Source of the DNA: Rhizophlyctis rosea | Lineage: Eukaryota > Chytridiomycota > Chytridiomycetes > Rhizophlyctidales > Rhizophlyctidaceae | NCBI GenBank assembly: GCA_027596075.1 | Contig: JADGJC010000083.1 | Span: 62,001-126,000 of the forward strand | Direction: 5' to 3' | DNA: 64,000 nucleotides | Program-made: the position numbers and the translations under genes | Shown: positions 1,201 through 48,175 of the stretch, in pieces | How the letters are laid out: each line of letters begins with the position of its first letter | How positions within the stretch are numbered: position 1 is the stretch's first letter | The notes under the pieces: generated by a model | What the model saw: only the letters and a program-made list of their open reading frames with translations | What the model was told of the DNA's origin: nothing | Databases searched by the model: none

Positions 1201-2505
1201 GCAAGTAGTCACCTAGATCTTTGCAATTGCCTTTGTGCGCATCGGGCGGCCAGGCAGGTGGTGCGAGTTATGGAGGGCTATAAATATCACGTAAACAAAC
1301 CAGTCGGTTAGATGTGATAGTCAGAAATTTGGAATTGAGCGAGCCAGAACCGAAGGGCAGTTGCGACTCTCACTGCAGTCCTTTTGCCTGAGGGTGTTGC
1401 TGCTCACCATTATGATTCTCCAGATCTACGCGGGTGGGAAGCGTTGTTTTGACGGGTTGTAATGGGGATCTGGTGGGAAAGTTGACGTCGAAGTTTGGGT
1501 CTGAGTTTGGGTCATCGAATCTGTTTGTGGGCGAGGCTTGGGATGGCTGAGTGGGTTTACGTAAGCAATAGCAACAACCAAAGGGTCCAAGATTGTTATA
1601 TTGCTTCCACTAATATTTTCAACCCGACGAACATAAAGGACACTAGCTCCCAGATATGTCAAAGGCGCAAAGCTAATGAAGTCGAGAAAGCAAAGGCGAA
1701 GGGAAAACCGTCTGAATGCAGAATTGGTCCCTTCCTCAGGCATCAATAAAGGGCTTAGCAATGATGGCCCGGAAAAACATATCAGAGAACGCTCATATCG
1801 CACCTGTGTCAACTAAGAACAGGAATGCTGTAATCCAGAAGGTATGCCTCGAAAATGACAATGACTACGAGTTGATAAAGCAGGTTGTGCGATATGTGTC
1901 CCACCCGAGCTCGTGTAATGGAACATCAGATGAGGGGCAACAATAATGCGGTAAGGCTCTTTGGATAATGCTGGGCGTCTGGGAAAGCAACATGCGCCAC
2001 ACACTCTACATTTTGCAATGATACTTCGCGGACAACTTGGGAAGTGGACAATTCCTTTAGTACGACACACTCTTCACTTGCACTGCGTCGATTGAGAAGA
2101 ATGAGCATTATGGAATAATTTCAAGCCATTTCACCCGAAGTTCGTGTGCACCTAGGCCCATACTGCCCGTGCACTTGCCACTCATAGTGGTGACAAAAAT
2201 TCTCAGATGGCGCGGTTGTCATTTATCAGCATCGCGATCGCGCCGCTCAAAACACGCACCCCACTGCGTCATGCTTTGACCTGCCGAACCCAAAATTTAC
2301 ATTACAAGCCGCAACGCCTCACATGAAAATGGACCCCGCCGTCTTTCACTCAGGTCGGGTACTGTACGCTGTCCATCAGTATTGCTGTTTGACATATAGT
2401 GACTAAATTATGGAATATTCGAGTGTTCAGATTTTATAAAGCTCGGGTTGTCTCCCCCGTGGCCCCCTTCATCAGGCCGGATGCGATCAGACGAGTTTGA
2501 ATACT
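1201..2505. other. Intergenic region between bL12m and the glycosyltransferase-like gene
   Basis: No convincing gene. A minus-strand frame at 1426-1812 (128 codons, starting at a non-ATG codon) has no recognisable domain; it could be a 5' exon or chance. The unresolved first exon of bL12m should lie in the left part. A TATAAA-like element (ttataaag, about 2435) is roughly 65 bp upstream of the ATG at 2506 and is the likely core promoter of the plus-strand gene. Confidence 0.5.
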
Positions 2506-3973
2506 ATGGGCTCCTTGATACAATACCACTCTCCGGGTTCCTACAAGAGTGGACGTTTCTCGTCAAACCCCATGCGCACGCTTATCCTTTCTCCTTTCTG
2601 CTTCAGAATCATCGTCGTTACCACCCTTACCCTCCTCGCGTGCACAGCCTACTATAAGTTCCAAACGTCCACCACCCCTCAAAAGCCGTACATATACTCC
2701 GACCCAAACGCATCTCGCTTTGTCCCCATCACCAACTCACCACCAAACCCCGCTCCCAAAATCGCACTCGAAACCTCCTCGCGCCACACACCTCCCTTCA
2801 TACCAAACTCCGTCACCCACCCCTATCCAAGCCCCATTCGCGGCCGCGTCGACGTAGCCTACCGCGCAGTGAACAAAAACCTCTCCGCCGTATCTGCTTT
2901 CGACCTTATCACGAAGTATAACGGTACGAGCTTGACCGCTCACACAGATCCCGACGCTAATATACCCACAAAACGCTACGCCCTCTTCTCCTCCACTGCA
3001 TCATACCAGTACGCGTTCTTCATTGCCCTGACGAGCCTAATATGGGTACACATGGGCTTCACTCCCGTCGTGCTACTGACAGGAAGCGACGAAGAATGGG
3101 CTGGGGAGTTGGGGCAGTTCATCCTGACGAAAACGTGGGAAGTCGGTGCGAGGGTGATTAGAGTTGGGAAAGTGGAAGGAATGGACGACGCGTATGCTGC
3201 GCAGATTTCGAGAATTTGTGTTGGGTTGGTGGATTTTGGATGGGAAGAGAAGGATGAAGGTATGGGTCCGTGGGTTGTCACGACGGATGTGGATGTTTGG
3301 CCGATGTGGAGTGAATTCTTTGATAATGTGGATTATCAGAAGGATATCGTGATCTTCGGTATGGTGTTCACTCTCAATAAATCTTGCCAAAAGCTGATCC
3401 TCCAAACCCACCTCAGAATCACAAAAACACCCCCCCTCAACCGCCCCACTCTCCTCCCGCACCCGCTACCCCTTCACCTACTACGGCGCCCACCTCAAAA
3501 CCTGGACAACAATCTTCCCCTTCCCACCCCGCCCCCTCACCATCCCCTACGCCCTCCACTACCTAACCAACGCCCACCAAGATCTCTACACCACAGACCC
3601 ATTCACATTCGACGAACGAATCTCAACACACTACCTAAAACTCCACCCCTCCTGGCCCCACAACGTCCAATTCATCACTCGCTGGACAAACCGCGACCGC
3701 CTGGGTCGTCGCATACGGTCTGCGGCGTGGGATGAAGTCGGTGCGGGGTATGTTAGACCCGAGTTTGTGGATGTGCATGTTGGGGTTGGGGAGGCGCAGG
3801 ATGCGCAGTATGGGAATTGGGGGGCTTTGAGGGTTTTGGTGGAGCATGTTGTTGGGGAGGCGAATATGGGTTGGGTTGATGAGTACTATAAAGTGGTGAG
3901 TGGGTTGGCGGAGAAGGCTGGGATGGAGAGGCCGAAGAAGGTGTATGGTGGGTTCAAGAAAGTTGATCGATAG
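2506..3973 (+). CDS. Type II membrane protein resembling a glycosyltransferase
   Basis: Two exons (2506-3358, 3417-3973; intron gtatgg...ctcag) encode 469 aa. A short cytosolic N-terminus is followed by one membrane span (residues ~29-50, FRIIVVTTLTLLACTAYY), then a Pro-rich stem and a globular region, the layout of Golgi type II enzymes. The core begins RYALFSSTASYQYAFFIALT and IWVHMGFTPVVLLTGSDEEW, and later carries TTDVDVWPMWSEF, a DxD-type motif that in nucleotide-sugar transferases binds metal and donor. A second block (WPHNVQFITRWTNRDR, then EFVDVHVGVGEAQDAQYGNW) follows. The ATG at 2506 is the first in frame; the upstream TTG at 2497 is ignored. The exact family and substrate are not recognised, so transferase activity is inference from topology and the DxD motif. 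Confidence 0.65.
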
Positions 3974-39732: not shown

Positions 39733-41916
39733 TTAGTCTCGGTCATTTCTCCATCGATGACCAGCCTCACCGGCCCTCCGATAAAACTCCCCACTGGACC
39801 TCCCATATCCTTCGCCCCCACCCTGACCTCCACGACCCCGCCCCCTCGCATCGCCTCTCGACCCACCCCCTCCGCGATGCCATCCCCGCCCACCGTACCC
39901 CCCGCCATCCCCATCGCTCTTACCCCCTCCCCTGTTCGCCCGCCCAGGACTCCCATCGCCCCCTCTCCATCCCCGCCCGTCCCCGTCCCATCTGCCAATT
40001 TCATCGCTCCTCCGGGTATACCCAGCCAATCCCCCACCATCTCTACCCTGCGGACTACCTCCAACCCCATCGTGTCGCCGCCACTCAGGAGGAGTTCCTC
40101 CTCCGCTCGCACCTCTAGACTGGCTCCGACTCCTAGGCGTCCCTTCAGTCGGCCACTGAGCCGCATCATCCCTTCGCTCGCCCCACCGGTTCGGCTCACC
40201 CCATCCGTCCGTCACCTTCCCTCCCCAGCCTTCATACGGGCTGGGCGCGCCCCATCCGTTCGTATGTATATCGTCAGAAGGATGTTTCTTCTGGTCTTCA
40301 GAAGGCTTTTCGCCCGATCCCCACGCGTCCGGTTGGTAGGTCAAGTGGTGTTGCGAAGAGGGAGCTTCTTGACCAGTTGCATGGGCTGACGACTGAGGCT
40401 TCTGCCCAGTCGGCGCATGCGAGCTGCTATCCAACTCCGCCCGGGCACCGTACTGCGTCTCCCCTTCACTCCATGCAATGACGCTCTCATCGCCCTCTCT
40501 TCGTAGGTCGTCCCACAACTTCCGGAACAACTCTGATGATGGACGCGTTAGTATTGATATACTCCAAGAAACAGTGGACATTAATCACCTTTGCAGTACG
40601 CGTAATCCGGCTCCTCCGTGAAACTGAGATCCCGCGTATACTCCAAAAATATGGAAAACTCTGCCGGCATCCCCGAAGTAAGATCGGCAGTAAGGGTATC
40701 TGACTTACACTCGCCGATTTTACGCCATCCTTCTGTTGACGTCAGCGCACGCATTCCGACCCATGGCAAAGACCTACAGGCACCGAGTTATTAAAACTTT
40801 ATGAGAAGGATTGAACGCTTGAGCGATACTTGCCCCCTCAGAAACTCGATCAGAATATACGCGAGACTCTCCAGATCGTCCCTGCGCGTATGCTCGCTCC
40901 CTTTGTGGACATTGACGCTCGCGTATCGAGCAGTCCCCGTCTTGTGTTTAGGCTTTTTACTTCTTCGACTCGCATTCCTGATATGGCGCCCATCTTCACG
41001 GTAAAAGGCCGCAAGACCGAAGTCGATAACATATATCTTTGGGTTACGTGTCATGTCTTCGCCGAACTGACCAACGCAGAACTGGTCGGGTTTCTGTATG
41101 TCGCTCGTCAGTTTTATGGGTTCCGCAATACCGTTAGATGCAGAGCGCACATACCACGTCCCGAAAGACAACGCCAGCGCGATGAATATCACACAATCTA
41201 TCCAGCATCTGAATAGCACAGTATGCGACAGTTCGGACAGGGATAGTATGTGAAGGCGACGCGTTCAACATCTGCTTGAGCGATGGGCCCAACCGATCCA
41301 TCACTAAAATCTTGAATGACCCGTCGTCTCCAAAGTGGTGGATGCGAGGAAGTCCACTGATCCCGGAAAGTGCCTGGTACATTTTATCTGAGAGTAAGGA
41401 CGTGAGCTGGGGCAGAGAGTTGTAAGGAAGTGAAACGCAACTTCGGGCATACATTCATGTTCTAGGTTATGTCCTGAGGACTTCAGCTCTCGTTTGACGG
41501 CTACCGGTGCTTGCGTCTGTATGTCTGCGCCTGTCGAAAAGATGTTGAGCGTCTGGTGCTTTTGCAAGTCGAGAACATATGTGTTAGCGCGACATACCTC
41601 CAAACACTTCCCCAAAGCTGCCAGCACCGATCTTCCCCTGGGCAGAAGATTAGTACTTGCCACGAAAGGTTTTGCCAAATTATGAAGCGCAAAGCCCGTA
41701 ACTTACATCAATTTCCCATTTATCACAGACTATTTTCGGCATTGGCGCACCCGTTTCAGGTGGGGCCGACAAGGAAGTCGAAGCGCTGCCGTGAAAGCTT
41801 GTAGGGGAAGGGTCCCAGTTGCTGGACCATGCCGATACTGCTGTTTCCGATGAAGGGGAAGGTGATAGCGTGGATTGTTGGAAGCGGGCTACTGGACGTT
41901 TGTCAGGAGTTGACAT
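39733..41916 (-). CDS. CK1-family protein kinase with altered catalytic loop and Gly/Arg-rich tail
   Basis: A multi-exon minus gene from ATG 41916 (MSTPDKRPVARFQQSTLSPS) to TAA 39733. Kinase landmarks: glycine loop GKIGAGSFGEVFG, VAIK-type Lys in APVAVKRELKSSG, LPRIHHFGDDGSFKILVMDR, DFG motif VIDFGLAAFYRED, and the CK1-specific KHKTGTARYASVNVHKGSEH plus RRDDLESLAYILIEFLRG and LPWVGMRA. The catalytic loop reads FRDV then KPDQF across an intron, where CK1 enzymes have HRDIKPDNF: the His is Phe and the metal-binding Asn is Gln. The C-terminal ~250 residues are disordered, first Ser/Gln/Trp-rich with WG motifs (NGWGAPSPYEGWGG, DGWGEPNRWGE) and then a Gly/Arg-rich RGG-type run. It may be low-activity or a pseudokinase; RNA binding by the tail is inference. 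Confidence 0.85.
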
Positions 41917-42022
41917 AAGTATGTTGTTTGAGTTCAAAAGATTTACTCCGAGAAAGGACGAGAAAACAAGGCAAAGCAATTGTGGGAAAGCGAAGGGAAA
42001 GTGGGGTTTTGGACGCGTCGAA

Positions 42023-43009
42023 ATGACTCGCGCGCAGCCCTGTCCAAAATCTGTTTTGAACCCCACTTCAGCAACTTTATTCTGCCTTCACTTTCCCACA
42101 TCACTTATCGCCAATCTCACGAAAGGCCAAGAAGAAAAAAGACAACACCGAAACGCCTGCCGTTCAATCCAAAACCCTTTCTATGCCTTGTACAAGCGAC
42201 CTGATGTGATTGCTCGTCGCAGGCCACAGAGTGGCATCTATTCCATATCGGACGTCTTTGAAGTCGTCTACGAGAGATGGGGCACGGGCGACGGTATTAC
42301 TCAGACAGTCAACAGGCCAGGAATCATATGCGGCCATTGGGTAACGGAGTGGGAGAAGGGCACGGGCGATGTGACCATCATAACATTAGATAATAGCATC
42401 TCCCAATCCGCGAAGCGCACGCGTATCCGCCCAAACCCCGCTTTCTTCGACATCAACGAGACTGCCTTGGCGTACACCGTTTATGTTCCAGAACCTGAGG
42501 CTCCCTATCGCGCTCTACTTAACGTTGTACGTCTCGTTGACGACACGCAGATGGCCTCTCATGTTCTCCCCGATGCGTCAAAATGCCGCCACCTTACCGT
42601 CACCCGCCTCAACGTTCTGCTACATTACGGCACGGAATGTGAGGTTTTTGATCTCAAACTGACTTCTTCCTACAACCTGCCACTTCTCAGCGACCTTTTC
42701 GGGCTTGATCGCCGCCATCCTCATGATTGGCAGTTTAATGACTGGTTGGGAATTCACAATCCGACTCGGAGAGCCTGGGGAACTGCCGATGCCGGTCTAC
42801 ATCTACTGGACCCGAAAACCAGAACACGTCAATTCTTCACACCCTTGGGCCGCTGTTTTTACAATGATGGGCGTGCTTCGCCGGAGGGTCCGTATGACGA
42901 TGGATATTGTTTCACCACAATTGAATATCCTGTCGATGAGGCGGGGAGCAGGACGGGAGCAGGGGGCCATTTACGGCATTATTGGCGGTGGTTGGAACGG
43001 GTTTCCTAA
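42023..43009 (+). CDS. Uncharacterised protein A; paralog of the gene at 44236-44956
   Basis: The frame ends at TAA 43007-43009; the coding character is convincing from about 42220. Characteristic segments are GIICGHWVTEWEKGTGDVTI, FFDINETALAYTVYVPEPEA, LLNVVRLVDDTQMASHVLPD, LTVTRLNVLLHYGTECEVFD, LHLLDPKTRTRQF, CFTTIEYPVDEAGSRTGAGG and HYWRW. The same motifs occur in the same order in the gene at 44236-44956, so this is a two-member local family. No known domain is recognised; the alternating short hydrophobic strands look like a beta-propeller-type repeat (inference only). The start is uncertain: ATG 42023 is in frame but the first ~65 residues lack any counterpart in the paralog, and an acceptor at 42222 could mean an upstream exon. 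It is divergent from the CK1-like gene. Confidence 0.55.
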   Translation: MTRAQPCPKSVLNPTSATLFCLHFPTSLIANLTKGQEEKRQHRNACRSIQNPFYALYKRPDVIARRRPQSGIYSISDVFEVVYERWGTGDGITQTVNRPGIICGHWVTEWEKGTGDVTIITLDNSISQSAKRTRIRPNPAFFDINETALAYTVYVPEPEAPYRALLNVVRLVDDTQMASHVLPDASKCRHLTVTRLNVLLHYGTECEVFDLKLTSSYNLPLLSDLFGLDRRHPHDWQFNDWLGIHNPTRRAWGTADAGLHLLDPKTRTRQFFTPLGRCFYNDGRASPEGPYDDGYCFTTIEYPVDEAGSRTGAGGHLRHYWRWLERVS

Positions 43010-43150
43010 AGTGATGCGGCATTCTGCAGGTTACGGGAGTTGGATATAAAGTTGCGTCATCTAGATAGCTGTACCCTTCTTCAAGCCGAGATATTTAAGG
43101 TAGAAAGTGATGCATGAGTCTGAAGTTCATATAATGTCGTATGTGAGAAT
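43010..43150. other. Spacer between gene A and the inverted Fanzor remnant
   Basis: 141 bp with no feature. Its right edge at 43151 is where homology with the Fanzor 3' flank begins abruptly. Confidence 0.4.
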
Positions 43151-43467
43151 GTATTTTCTACACACCCCTCTCCGGGGTTATGCATACGAATCAGTATGCC
43201 AGAGTAAATTACAGTGCTCGTGCTACCTAATGAGCGGAGAGTATAGACTAGACATATCTAAACTATACAATGTGCAACTGAAATCTGAGGGGAACGCCGA
43301 TGACAGACGCAATGACAGAAAGACGGGGTACGTATTTTACAGGAAGATGGGGAATGCAGGTATTCAACGGGAAGGCTCGGCCCTCATAAACTCGTCGTCT
43401 GCAGTTCCGCCCAGTATTCTGTCGGGGGCTCATACTTGTACTCGTTGGGTGGTGGCAAGTTCCATTC
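43151..43467 (-). mobile_element. Inverted, truncated copy of the Fanzor gene 3' end plus conserved 3' flank
   Basis: Read on the minus strand, 43467-43384 encodes the last ~27 residues of a Fanzor (EWNLPPPNEYKYEPPTEYWA, ELQTTSL, TGA), differing by a single residue (N for D) from the same stretch of the gene ending at 46474. The following ~230 bp match the 3' flank of that gene, including an ATTTCAGTTG-x-TCATTGTA-type block (tcagttgcacattgtatagt here), CTATACTCTCCGCTC, the GCATAC...GTATGC hairpin and the ACCCC...GGGGT hairpin, and stop at GTAGAAAATAC. A segment of about 65 bp (roughly 43288-43368) is present here and absent from the other copy. Nothing upstream of the final codons is kept, so it is a 3'-end fragment or a short non-autonomous derivative. 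Confidence 0.85.
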
Positions 43468-44235
43468 TGCAGTAGTTGGAGAGCGCGTCCGGCTGATCAT
43501 GAGGGACTCGTAGTCAGGGGAGACAACCGTCGGGAGACAACCGTCAACTTTGAGCACCTCCCTGTAGCTGAGCCATTGCGTTCGTCATGCTGCCGGGAGC
43601 CACTAACTTCTACATGCGTCCACGACTCTGTGCTCCTCTTTTCATTTTCGTATTGGTTCCCGGAGCATTTTCACTTTTTCTTTTCTTTCCAGATTCATTT
43701 AGATGGCAGCTCTTGTTGGTATCCGCAAACAGAGCAGCTAGCTGGCTCCGGTCCCTTGGGGGAATCGCATCCTTGTTGAAGACGCATGGATGCGCGGGAG
43801 GGTTCGAATCCCTCTCGGAGTCATATTGTGATATGGCGTTTGATTGTTTCAATAATATGCGAACGCTTCTCCATTCTCACTTTTTGTTTTCCAATGTAGT
43901 GCTGTGGCTGTGATGGAAGGGAAGTTCAGGGACGTGTATCGGTCGTTGGGTGGATCAGGGTGGAACATATGAATATTGACGAGAGATCGAGGTTTTCATA
44001 GACCGGACCTTGATGTTTGGCCGCAAAAGTCAAGAGGAATTGGGTCGACCAATGGAAGTGTTGGGATTTTGAAAGCAAGGGGATCGAACATCTTTTCATC
44101 TACAAGTCCCGTATTCATTGTCCCATATGATACATAGGCACCAATCAGGCTATTGCCCGACGAAAACTGAGCAATGCATCGTGCTGAACCACACTATTTT
44201 GTAATTGACTCCTATGATATAACAGTCCTAAAGTC
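43468..44235. other. Spacer inside the Fanzor island, with a tRNA-like 3' half
   Basis: No protein gene. A 14-bp direct repeat (gggagacaaccgtc, about 43517-43545) is followed by unique sequence. At about 43741-43825 there is a tRNA-like segment: a hairpin like a long variable arm (gcatggatgc), a perfect T arm (GAGGG-TTCGAAT-CCCTC) and a pairing CGGAGTC tail. A proper D arm and anticodon arm could not be built, so it is not called as a tRNA. Confidence 0.5.
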
Positions 44236-44956
44236 CTAACATACTTTTACGTCGTGACCCACCCACCGCCAATAATGCCCAAACTGACCCCCCGCTCCTC
44301 TCCTGTTCCCCGCTTCATCAACAGGATACTCAATCGTTGTTAAGCAATACCCCGGCACTACCGATCTGCCTTCCCGCAACCGCTTCAGGCACTCAACAAA
44401 TTGCCGGGTTCTGGTTTTCGGATCAAGGATCATCATATGAGTTTGCTGCCACACCATAATGATTGGCATTCTGCACCGCCATCCAGTCCAGAGGGTGCCA
44501 ATCTGCTTCTGGGGAACCGATGATGTCGGAGAGCTTGTAGAGGAAGTTTGAGTGGAAGTCAAAGACCCAGCATTCTTTGCTGAATAGGAGCAGGATGTTG
44601 ATGCGGGTGAGATGAAGCTGATAACAGGTGGAAATGTCAGGTATGGGGTACGAGCTTAGGTGTGTTGCATCGGACAGACGGACAAGGTTGAGTCGAGCCT
44701 TAAATGGTGATTCGGGTTCAGAGGTGAGGGCAACGTAAGCTAGGAAGGTTTCGTTGATGTCGCATAGGCCGTCGTGCAGGTGAAAGTGGTATGGTTTGAA
44801 ATCATTGTCCAATGATAGGATGGTGGCGGTTTCATCGTCCTCCCCCCATTCTTGAAGCTTATGTCCACAGATAGTTCCCATCCAGCTTCCCTTAAGTTCG
44901 GCAATGATTTCACCGCTGTCAACGTCCTGACCAACGATTTTGTAGGTATCTGGCAT
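44236..44956 (-). pseudogene. Frameshifted paralog B of the gene at 42023-43009
   Basis: The frame from ATG 44956 (MPDTYKIVGQDVDSGEIIAE) runs with clear similarity to gene A: MGTICGHKLQEWGEDDETAT, LCDINETFLAYVALTSEPES, ARLNLVRLSDATHLSSYPIP, LTRINILLLFSKECWVFDFH, DWMAVQNANHYG. It then hits a stop (about 44421). One base out of phase, the homology resumes at once: VWQQTHMMILDPKTRTRQF, YCLTTIEYPVDEAGNRRGAG and HYWRWVGH, ending at TAG 44236. The switch lies around 44441-44450 (ttatggtgtggcag), with no room for an intron. Either this copy carries a one-base indel and is a pseudogene, or the assembly has an error there. It is divergent from the Fanzor gene; the two ATGs are 151 bp apart. Confidence 0.7.
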
Positions 44957-45107
44957 GCGGCATGCGATGATATTGGGTCATTTGTAAGTGTAGTGTTGAC
45001 CAAGCCAATGCTGGTTCTCCGCCAAGTGTGAACAGTGCTGCCTACATCTTCTCTTGATTTTGAAACCAACTCGCTCCCTTCCCATCCTTACATCTTGGAA
45101 AACAGAT

Positions 45108-46474
45108 ATGGAAGCATCATATCAACATCAACGAAAAGCGTACTTCGGCGTGACAGAAAGAGATACGTGTATCTTTCTCCACAACAATATCTTTCCGCAC
45201 TATGCTAGGTCGGTCGTCGTGTCTAGATCTCTTCATCGGTGAACATCGCATCCACCCGACTGACAGAAACTCATGCTCACAGTCTCAAAGAATACTATAA
45301 CCGCAAAATCTTTTACAAAAATGGTTTCACCACACGCCAGCAGAACAAACGCTTCCTCACCATGACGGCACGCCATCTCATGCAGCTATCTCCGGTATGA
45401 GAGTCTACCTCTTTTCGCCAAATTGCCGATACTGAACATACAAATTGCAGAGATGGTGTCTCAACCCGGGACGCGCTCACAAAAAGCAGCTCAAGCGAGA
45501 ACATTATTTGCCGTCATCGTATATTGATTCCAACTTCCTGTCAGGTCAGACACGACAACAGAGAAGGTCTGCGGAGGTTGGGGTGGATATGATAGAGTAT
45601 AGGCGTTGGCACCCTCTGCCCAAAGAAGAGCAGCCCCGCCAAGGAGCGCTGTGGGCTTGGGGATGGGGAAACTATGCATGGAACAAACCGTATCCTCCTG
45701 TGCCTAACAAGGTTGGTTAGAAGTTGTTTGCCCATTCTGTGGAGAGATCAGACACTAAACACATTGACAGGCATTGGCGAGGGAAATAGCAGTGCAAGGT
45801 GACACTGTCATCATGATGCCGGAACGAGGCACCACAAAAGGCCAGTGTACTTCAGCCGTGGCCGGCTACGAGTCGCAATTGGTCGGCCCACCGTTTGAGT
45901 TCCGTCCTCATCAACATGCCTTACATTACTTGGTGGCTAATCAGCTTCGATGTGATCACGCGTGAGTGATGTTCATGAATAATTCTTAAGGTAATAACCA
46001 TCATTCTGATACTATCTAATGCTCAATGCAGAAAGACAAAGCTTCGCCGGCACGGCGAACGTCAGAGACATTGCAAGGTGTTGCATTGCTGGGTCCCGGA
46101 AAATCCCCTTCGGAGTGACGACAACATTCCGCGCGGGGAATGGATTCGTACAAAAGATTGTGGCGAACAGGCTCCAAAGCGTAAGTGTCACTGCACCTTG
46201 GAGCAAAAAGCGCACATGTGTTGATCTCCATCTCGTTCCAGTCCTCAAAAACCATCGCCTATTGCTGTGCAAAGATGGTTGCATGGCATTGTGCGCCAAT
46301 CAGCCGGCCATCATAGGACGGGATCAGAATGCATCGGCACTGCTTAGGTACATGCTTGTCAACTGTTGCTGCACGAGGGGACAGCGTCCTGAATGGAACT
46401 TGCCCCCACCCGACGAGTACAAGTATGAGCCCCCGACAGAATACTGGGCGGAACTGCAGACGACGAGTTTATGA
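45108..46474 (+). CDS. Fanzor (TnpB-like) RNA-guided nuclease homolog, short form with Asn at RuvC-I
   Basis: Six exons (45108-45208, 45283-45394, 45451-45711, 45771-45961, 46032-46180, 46242-46474) join in phase to 348 aa. Assignment rests on the C-terminal Fanzor core: LKEYYNRKIFY helix; RuvC-I position RWCLNPGRAHK; ALWAWGWGNYAW (residues 137-148) before a conserved strand; VIMMPERGTTKGQC with Glu176 in the rearranged RuvC-II position described for Fanzors; Cys-rich LLLCKDGCMALC; and RuvC-III GRDQNASALLRYMLV (Asp299) followed by GQRPEWNL. RuvC-I has Asn76 where Asp is expected, and the first zinc-knuckle pair is incomplete (QCTSA instead of CxxC). Known Fanzors are longer, with N-terminal recognition domains absent here, so this is an N-terminally truncated or decayed but frame-intact copy. 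If active, the family cuts DNA guided by an RNA encoded at the element's 3' end. Confidence 0.82.
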
Positions 46475-46641
46475 GGGCCGAGCCTTCCCGTCCGCATTCC
46501 CATCAGATTTCAGTTGCTCATTGTATAGTTTAGATATGTCTAGTCTATACTCTCCGCTCGTTAGGTAGCACGAGCAACTGTAATTTACTCTGGCATACTC
46601 ATTCGTATGCATAACCCCGGAGAGGGGTGTGTAGAAAATAC
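46475..46641 (+). ncRNA. Candidate omega-RNA / element 3' end downstream of the Fanzor gene
   Basis: Starts directly after the Fanzor stop codon. 167 bp that recur, with small differences and one ~65-bp indel, in the inverted copy at 43151-43383. Two stems are kept in both: GCATAC (46593-46598) with GTATGC (46605-46610), and ACCCC (46614-46618) with GGGGT (46624-46628). The loop of the first stem varies while the arms do not. Homology ends sharply at 46641 (GAAAATAC). In TnpB/Fanzor systems the guide RNA scaffold overlaps the nuclease 3' end and stops at the element border, which fits. That it is transcribed as a guide RNA is inference. Confidence 0.5.
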
Positions 46642-46651
46642 ACTACTTCTT

Positions 46652-46795
46652 GCGTGCGGGAGATGTGCAATTCCTCAGGTGTGGTAAGACGTGCATCACT
46701 CTGCTATTCCTCTGGTGCGGTAGACGTGCATCGCGCTGCTATTCCTCTAGTGCGGTAGACGTGCATCGCTCTGCTGTTCCCCAGGTGCGGAGTGC
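46652..46795. repeat. 35-bp minisatellite adjoining the Fanzor 3' end
   Basis: About four tandem copies of a 35-36 bp unit, gtgcggtagacgtgcatc / gctctgctattcctctg, beginning 11 bp after the end of the Fanzor homology. Central copies are nearly identical; the first is shortened. No counterpart is found beside the inverted copy at 43151. Confidence 0.85.
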
Positions 46796-48175
46796 AGGCG
46801 TCCGAATACCTGATAGCAACTGCAGTGAGTACGCGAAGCTGCACGTCCAAACGAGGTGGTGGGGATACTCACAGCTTTCGTTTGGATAAGATTGGGTTGA
46901 ATAGTTGAGGTCCGGCAGAACGGCAGCTCTTGACCGGCACCATGAGAAAAAGAAAGAAAGTTCACCAGTCGAGATCCTTGAGCCGACCCGCTCGTGTTGA
47001 ACGTGGTACGGAGCAAAAGAGAAGTCTGATGGTGGGTTTGATGAGAGTTTTGACGAGAGACACCTGCATGACGTTTAGATGCATGATGTGTCATGAGTCA
47101 TGTCAGCCGCGATCCGCAATTTTGTGGCCCCTGCGGGATGAGCTCAACATGGCTTAGACTGGTGGACTGTAACTTGGTTCTTTGGCCCGCAGAAAGCATA
47201 CAGTGGGATCACCAAACTCAATGGTATCATGACATGTTTGTGTAGCAAGTCCATCTGCCCAAATTTCGGTAATGGTGTCAGCAGTGTAACCAAATTCGAC
47301 CAATAAGATTCGACTGACCTGCCAGTCAGTAGCTTCCGAGTCTCTTCGGGCTTTTACGCAGGACTATTCACTGTGCAACTTATGGCTGCGGAGTTGGCTT
47401 ACTAGTCCAATTTGATGAGTGATTGATTGATCGGACCCAAAAAAGCTGCTCGGCCCATCGGTCGTGAGCGAGCTGTGTACACCGGCGAAGGTGGAAAACT
47501 GGAAAATTGAACATGCCCTTTCAATCGCACCTTGTTCACGGTATTGCTGGTCCTCCCCCTTACAACCTGCTAGCCAGCCAGCCAAACTTGCATCGCGGCG
47601 CACTACTTCGCTTCATTCGTGCCCAATAATATTCCACTAGTTTGAATAGTAGCAGTTCGGCATATGACGAGTGGGAGTGTATGTTATCACTTTCTAGCTC
47701 CTCTTGTAAGCTGAATATCTTTCACACGCGTTCAGTGTCCAGAGACTGGTTAGGTGTCGAGACGAACCCAGCTTCTATAGGTCGGTCCACACACTTTTGG
47801 TGGGCGTTGACACCTCGCTACCGCAGAAGATCCCTTCGAGATTGAACTTTCAACTCGTGTTTTCGCTCACTTGCAAAGTGCTTTGAGGGCTTGCGTCAAC
47901 CCATTCCTGCGTGGCCCTCGGCTTTGACACGCGAGGTGGCCCAATTTTCCCACACTTCCAATACGTTCCTTACAAACTCATGTCCTTGGCGAAGTACCTA
48001 TGAACCAGTAGTCATACTCCACATTCGTCAGAGCCCAAACACTGTTCCTTTTACTTCCACGGCGAGCCAAGCATTTCACACGCAAGCAGCTCACAGATCT
48101 GACCAGACTTCTCGTGTTGAGCCTGCAGTTCCTGCAGTTTCAGGTCCTGCACTTTTGTGTGTTGTCTATTGAACG
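46796..48175. other. Long intergenic region
   Basis: Nearly 1.4 kb without a recognisable gene. Short frames on both strands lack domains. The right part is pyrimidine-rich and should contain the promoter and 5' leader of the polyQ gene; cctgcagtt-type repeats (cctgcagttcctgcagtttc) lie just upstream of ATG 48176. Confidence 0.4.

Follow-up and report, generated by a model that had tools for sequence, protein, structure and literature searches.

According to the available text of PMC11423790, the catalytic residues of the chytrid Fanzor1 SpuFz1 are D383, E541 and D606, and the first Asp stands 158 residues before the Glu. Published search patterns, as given in the excerpts at hand, describe similar spacings: Yoon et al. 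searched Fanzors with DPG followed after 120–160 residues by E (PMC10711439), and Bao and Jurka used D-X(125,275)-[TS]-[TS] (PMC3627910). In two further papers, SpuFz1 ghost loci of Spizellomyces punctatus are right ends without a Fanzor gene (PMC10432273), and TldRs are nuclease-dead regulators of the TnpB family from bacteria and phages (PMC13418256). Our literature search returned no nuclease-dead Fanzor gene by title and no work on Fanzor in Rhizophlyctis.

The genome of Rhizophlyctis rosea contains known Fanzors. On contig C391 (8157–8792 and upstream), a Fanzor1 of canonical appearance has DPG; Gly stands at its RuvC-II Glu position (VDGFRTS), and its reading is split by one stop in frame. 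On contig C89, the readings 2111–3418 and 1919–2107 (minus strand) represent a nearly open, SpuFz1-like Fanzor1, and the C89 reading is identical, over 431/431 residues, to the annotated R. rosea protein HDV00_003153.

We analyzed a stretch of 64,000 nucleotides of R. rosea DNA, called the window below. According to our in silico analysis, the gene at 45108–46474 is probably a copy, shortened by a recent truncation, of a divergent Fanzor1-like mobile gene of this species. As the original prediction had stated, its six exons join in phase; they give 1047 nt, corresponding to 348 residues and a stop. The five introns, which had been called intact together with the frame, are all GT-AG, with lengths of 74, 56, 59, 70, and 61 nt. 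The quoted motifs PERGTTKGQC (E176), GRDQNA (D299), WGWG, and GQRP were all found in the spliced protein, where E176 and D299 are 123 residues apart, and the quoted codons were found at 45457–45474. The parts of the gene are listed here; C165 is the contig that carries its closest paralogue.

45108–45208, plus strand: exon 1, residues 1–33 and two bases; its counterpart is an internal exon of C165
45147–45164, plus strand: GVTERD in exon 1, the favoured RuvC-I position, with T16 instead of Asp
45283–45394, plus strand: exon 2, which starts with SLKEYY (from residue 34), similar to the Fanzor1 segment after RuvC-I
45451–45711, plus strand: exon 3, containing CLNPGR, WGWG, and PPVPNK
45457–45474, plus strand: CLNPGR in exon 3, codons TGT CTC AAC CCG GGA CGC, probably not RuvC-I
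45771–45961, plus strand: exon 4, a RuvC-II-like strand with E176 (45822–45824) and TTKGQC
46032–46180, plus strand: exon 5, a Cys/His-rich part resembling a zinc region
46242–46474, plus strand: exon 6, with GRDQNA including D299 (46322–46324, RuvC-III-like), GQRP, and the stop codon

Six different joins of exon 1 keep the frame open, and among them we chose the junction 45208/45283 because the C165 paralogue has a matching one. By eye, the intron after VPNK is present in all five copies of the family, and the gene structure in the window is therefore not a chance reading. These copies (the window gene and those on C165, C463, C150, and C175) were obtained by searching the R. rosea assembly itself, which comprises 44.1 Mb in 634 contigs of this one strain. 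Over the aligned parts, the window protein is 63% identical to C165, 52% to C463, 44% to C150, and 37% to C175. Decay, truncation, or a contig end has affected each of these four: C165 is broken by frame breaks and an in-frame stop, C463 is truncated by the end of its contig, C150 can be recognised only from its WGWG strand onward (from where it appears open by eye), and C175 is seemingly interrupted after RuvC-III. The original prediction had proposed a search of the same genome for full-length copies; among the five copies in the assembly, none is both full-length and open. The C165 reading extends, by eye, upstream of its exon 1 counterpart and across an acceptor site, and the Met at the ATG of the window gene has an internal counterpart in C165. 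Since C165 reads on in this way, the window copy is 5′-truncated and starts at an internal exon, in line with the absence of N-terminal domains that had been predicted. One query with the deeper upstream readings of C165 gave no second genomic copy.

Kinship of the family with Fanzor/TnpB proteins is highly likely, mostly on ordered motifs. All five rows of the alignment share the RuvC-II Glu, and all four copies that reach the RuvC-III segment have its Asp; in the window, this Asp belongs to the Arg-Asp of GRDQNA (D299), near the C terminus. The alignment of the RuvC-III/GERP block scored 30.8 compared to a shuffle mean of 4.8, with 0/150 shuffles as good, and that of the RuvC-II block was equalled by 3/150. 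An ordered chain of E..[TS][TS].{2,3}C then RD.N arose 10 (window) and 15 (C150) times per 100,000 shuffles, and 0 times in 100,000 for each when a subsequent G..RP was included, with an expression that had been loosened after the sequences had been seen. When the whole domain of the family profile was aligned with Fanzor1, 0/150 shuffles were as good in one run, and 1 or 37 of 400 in another, depending on gap costs; with the window alone, 7 or 33 shuffles out of 400 did as well, and with C165 alone, 63 or 176, again by gap costs. An earlier overlap-type alignment with free ends was uninformative, being no better than shuffles (56, 49, and 48 of 150). In C150, C463, and C175, the rearranged Glu stands exactly six residues before the first zinc-finger Cys. 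The window has seven, with one extra residue between E176 and C184 compared to these paralogues, and C165 is frame-broken in this stretch. Only the first Cys of the C4 finger CxxC...CxxC was found, and the window, C150, C463, and C175 all lack a second Cys three residues beyond it.

The C-terminal Fanzor core that was originally read in this protein is probable from the motif chain, the RuvC-III block, and sub-threshold matches to TNB (PF07282), but in the profile check against Fanzor that had been proposed with it, no profile reaches its cut-off. Searches of Pfam (E up to 10) and of NCBIfam and PHROGs (E up to 1) gave no match to the window protein. For TNB, the curated cut-off of which is 26.3 bits, the window protein had no match above that value. 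Two of the five members matched it below threshold, C463 with 12.5 bits (E 0.17) and C150 with 11.3 bits (E 0.39); both matches fall at the expected RuvC-II/zinc position, and no other Pfam family was hit by two or more members. A Fanzor1 HMM built in this work gave −0.8 bits for the window (55/1000 shuffles as good; not significant) and −0.6 bits for C165 (52/1000). With an HMM of the closest Fanzor subgroup, the window reached 3.0 bits (2/1000; not significant) and C165 1.0 bit (16/1000). A six-frame HMM scan recovered the known Fanzors of the genome and gave nothing better than E 0.34 at the family loci. Protein database searches with the spliced protein carrying an alternative exon 1 (437 candidates) or with a padded five-row alignment (5068 candidates) returned nothing at E <= 0.01. 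A PDB search gave a single match at E 0.6 for the spliced protein and none for the five-row alignment, and the 39 stretches of viral contigs that fit a pattern included no relative.

The original prediction located the replaced RuvC-I Asp at CLNPGR. This is probably the wrong position, although an Asp is absent at the exon 1 position as well. CLNPGR is probably not RuvC-I because N76 stands 100 residues before E176, C165 reads PLNPNR at the same position, and the S of SLKEYY, a segment resembling the MSRKEYY that follows RuvC-I in canonical Fanzor1, precedes N76 by 42 residues. In the C391 Fanzor1, the DPG Asp comes 24 positions before the S of SRKEYY (one stop codon counted). T16 of GVTERD is 160 residues before E176, and the alignments lead us to favour, but do not prove, a RuvC-I register in exon 1. 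When the Asp column was forced onto each of 48 window residues (5–40 and 71–82), T16 came out on top, with a block score of 9.1 and a total of 5.1, and N76 came seventh, with a block score of 1.3 and a total of −10.8. Six alignments were left unforced: T16 was the choice of the family profile and the equivalent Thr that of C165 alone, each in both settings, while the window alone chose N76 at gaps 10/0.5 and K46 at gaps 8/0.3; the Glu column fell on E176 in 0/6. Taken on its own, the exon 1 block was matched by 7/150 shuffles. Both the window and C165 read GVTER at the favoured position. The Asp is missing at both candidates, T16 and N76, and the window reading has no DPG 120–160 residues before the RuvC-II Glu; the RuvC-I Asp could have been in a lost upstream exon. 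We also considered a Val-Asp-Ile-Gly upstream in C165 as RuvC-I and set it aside, as it precedes the Glu by about 240 residues and its surroundings are helix-like.

Three features adjoin the gene.

46475–46642, plus strand: stop-to-right-end region, which ends in the shared terminus GCATAACCCC...GTGTGTAGAAAATAC
43150–43467, minus strand: inverted protein-less stub, which repeats the right end and the final ~100 bp of the coding sequence and includes an insert of 66 bp at 43301–43366
44426–44977, minus strand: 184-aa reading, head-to-head with the gene, which belongs, possibly as a fragment, to a multicopy gene family of the host that has no Pfam match

The stop-to-right-end region would be the expected site of a guide RNA if the gene is Fanzor-like. 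The predicted RNA fold of 46481–46642 (−44.9 kcal/mol, z −2.84, 2/200 shuffles as good) is compatible with a putative guide scaffold. With up to 2 mismatches, the pattern GCATAACCCNNNNANNGGGTGTGTAGAAA occurs at 6 genomic places, compared to 0 for a backward control: window 43155 (minus strand) and 46609 (plus strand), two around C165, and two on C112. Downstream of the stop, C150 and C175 have similar ends. Inspection by eye of the ends of the window copy and of C165 showed no target-site duplication. Protein-less stubs were seen three times in all, each one-ended and retaining a coding tail of ~70–100 bp. The stub in the window is 95.4% identical over 152 bp and 98.0% over 101 bp to the right end/coding tail of the window gene, and the stub at C112:96755–97039 is 94.4% identical to it over 285 bp, insert included. 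Compared to the right end at the window gene, C112:89152–89304 shows 98.7% identity over 153 bp and the other C112 stub 96.7% over 151 bp.

Members of the host gene family flank the inverted stub in opposite orientation, at 41795–43006 (plus strand) and 44426–44977 (minus strand). The family has at least 38 genomic matches, self included, and is without a Pfam match; its 44426–44977 member occupies the place where upstream Fanzor-like exons are expected. Between the stub and the gene, at ~43490–43830, lies a dispersed repeat with at least 3 matches over ~330 bp at 70–77% and, among the 42 matches listed, at least 31 further ones confined to ~43708–43835. A sub-threshold tRNA-Sec match at 43744–43822 hints at a tRNA-derived repeat; ARAGORN found no tRNA there, and the two Rfam matches over 42500–47500 are both under gathering score. 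Beside the right end, at 46641–46791, there are short repeat units that recur in the genome, and 38/45 matches of the right-end query fall on them. At C112:89152–96597, inverted family end motifs stand ~7.4 kb apart around long readings that look by eye like ordinary genes; these may be either chance stubs or a captured host segment. The interval 43150–46642 was considered as one clean inverted-repeat transposon and set aside, because it holds the dispersed repeat and the host gene family member. That C112 has the same ends ~7.4 kb apart also disfavours this reading.

A recently truncated copy would have retained the RuvC-II, zinc-region, and RuvC-III part together with the right end of the element, and would have lost everything upstream of one intron, namely the WED/REC portion along with a working RuvC-I, if there was one. 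A member of the host gene family lies at that place in opposite orientation. With WED/REC and a working RuvC-I absent, no guide-directed nuclease action would be expected. The open frame would then reflect the youth of the copy rather than retention by the host. That the truncated C-terminal half was adopted by the host, expressed, and kept for a non-nuclease function is very improbable, even though 348 codons are open and five introns intact while C165 is broken. Over 328 codons compared between the window and C165, dN is 0.26 and dS is saturated (not estimable), 57/88 fourfold sites differ, and the differences by codon position are 0.28, 0.19, and 0.57. These figures show that the lineage was under protein-level constraint, which might be taken for adoption but is expected because the lineage was an active transposon. 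The outgroup copies agree with one another at 71 columns; the window gene agrees with them at 47 of these and C165 at 42, so that the window copy has no clear lead in preservation. Between the right end and the stubs, the divergence is 1.3–4.6%, split between two branches. In a neutral simulation, the gene stayed intact in 34–56% of runs at 0.5% divergence, in 11–33% at 1%, in 1–9% at 2%, and in 0–3% at 3% or more, the ranges reflecting the indel rate. The ends being 95–99% identical, the intact frame therefore needs no host selection if the copy is young; at the old end of the age range, it would be lucky, and its rarity at 3–5% neutral divergence (0–3% of runs) speaks against a young Fanzor-like copy, as do the non-significant profile scores, the dependence of the whole-domain alignments on gap costs, and the target-site duplication not seen at the ends. 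No annotated or predicted relative was found at E <= 0.01, and we found nothing in support of domestication. The original prediction left two options. Its guide-binding domain kept by the host is disfavoured, as the WED/REC region itself is missing and no selection on the copy was found, and its recently decayed copy is the better one.

The other alternatives concern the nature of the family. A different mobile-element protein, outside Fanzor/TnpB and alike by chance in a few motifs, would agree with the lack of any profile above cut-off, with the 1% probability given by profile-profile comparison to Fanzor (hhalign), and with the absent CxxC...CxxC finger. It would also fit the E176–D299 distance, 123 residues versus 65 in SpuFz1 (from the available text of PMC11423790), and the fact that in C150 the unrelated Pfam family NPHP3 (E 0.12) is slightly ahead of TNB (E 0.39). 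We nevertheless consider it unlikely, since the RuvC-III/GERP block (0/150 shuffles), the motif chain (0/100,000, with an expression relaxed afterwards), and the TNB matches of 2/5 members at the expected place argue against it, and the protein-less end stubs resemble those of a known Fanzor. It is quite doubtful that a Fanzor-like lineage was already nuclease-dead before its copies spread, with T-E-R for D-P-G and with the RuvC-II Glu and RuvC-III Asp kept. The window and C165 share GVTER at the favoured RuvC-I and are 63% identical, and the Glu (five rows) and the RuvC-III Asp (four copies reaching it) are conserved; however, the RuvC-I register is uncertain (7/150 shuffles for the exon 1 block) and the region is held by just two copies, C165 being broken and the window truncated. 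Moreover, no full-length open copy was found in the assembly, and the Asp could be in an upstream exon. If the lineage is nuclease-dead, full-length members might still bind guide RNA and DNA. A chytrid Fanzor-like lineage that had lost both the RuvC-I Asp and the classical zinc finger, and that consisted as a whole of nuclease-dead RNA-guided DNA binders with protein-less guide loci, seems to us improbable.

The window copy itself, as a truncated remnant, is most likely a fossil. The family would be a divergent Fanzor-like lineage with unusual zinc and RuvC-I regions, with no predicted protein at E <= 0.01. Should full-length members lack the catalytic Asp, they would constitute a eukaryotic nuclease-dead TnpB-family protein, of which our literature search found none. 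The likeness to TldR is limited to the notion of a nuclease-inactive member of the TnpB family; TldR is an RNA-guided transcription factor, whereas guide binding and a regulatory role of the window protein would be hypothetical. The Fanzor2/IS607-like elements of the same genome (C21 and C270, with PF07282 matches) would belong to the same superfamily if the kinship holds. Both have TNB above cut-off and, by eye, an adjoining serine-resolvase-like reading, neither of which was seen at the window gene. Like the SpuFz1 ghost loci, as far as the accessible text on them goes, the C112 copies and the one at 43150–43467 are protein-less and keep the stop-to-right-end region and the terminus; unlike them, they are one-ended, carry ~70–100 bp of coding tail, and have a guide that is putative. 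The window gene differs from Fanzor1 in having no DPG, no CxxC...CxxC finger, no N-terminal half, and no significant profile score. It resembles the chytrid Fanzor1 proteins (SpuFz1, PDB 8gkh; C391 and C89) in the order of segments after RuvC-I, in E followed by [TS][TS], in RD.N and G-E/Q-R-P at the end, and in belonging to an element with shared ends.
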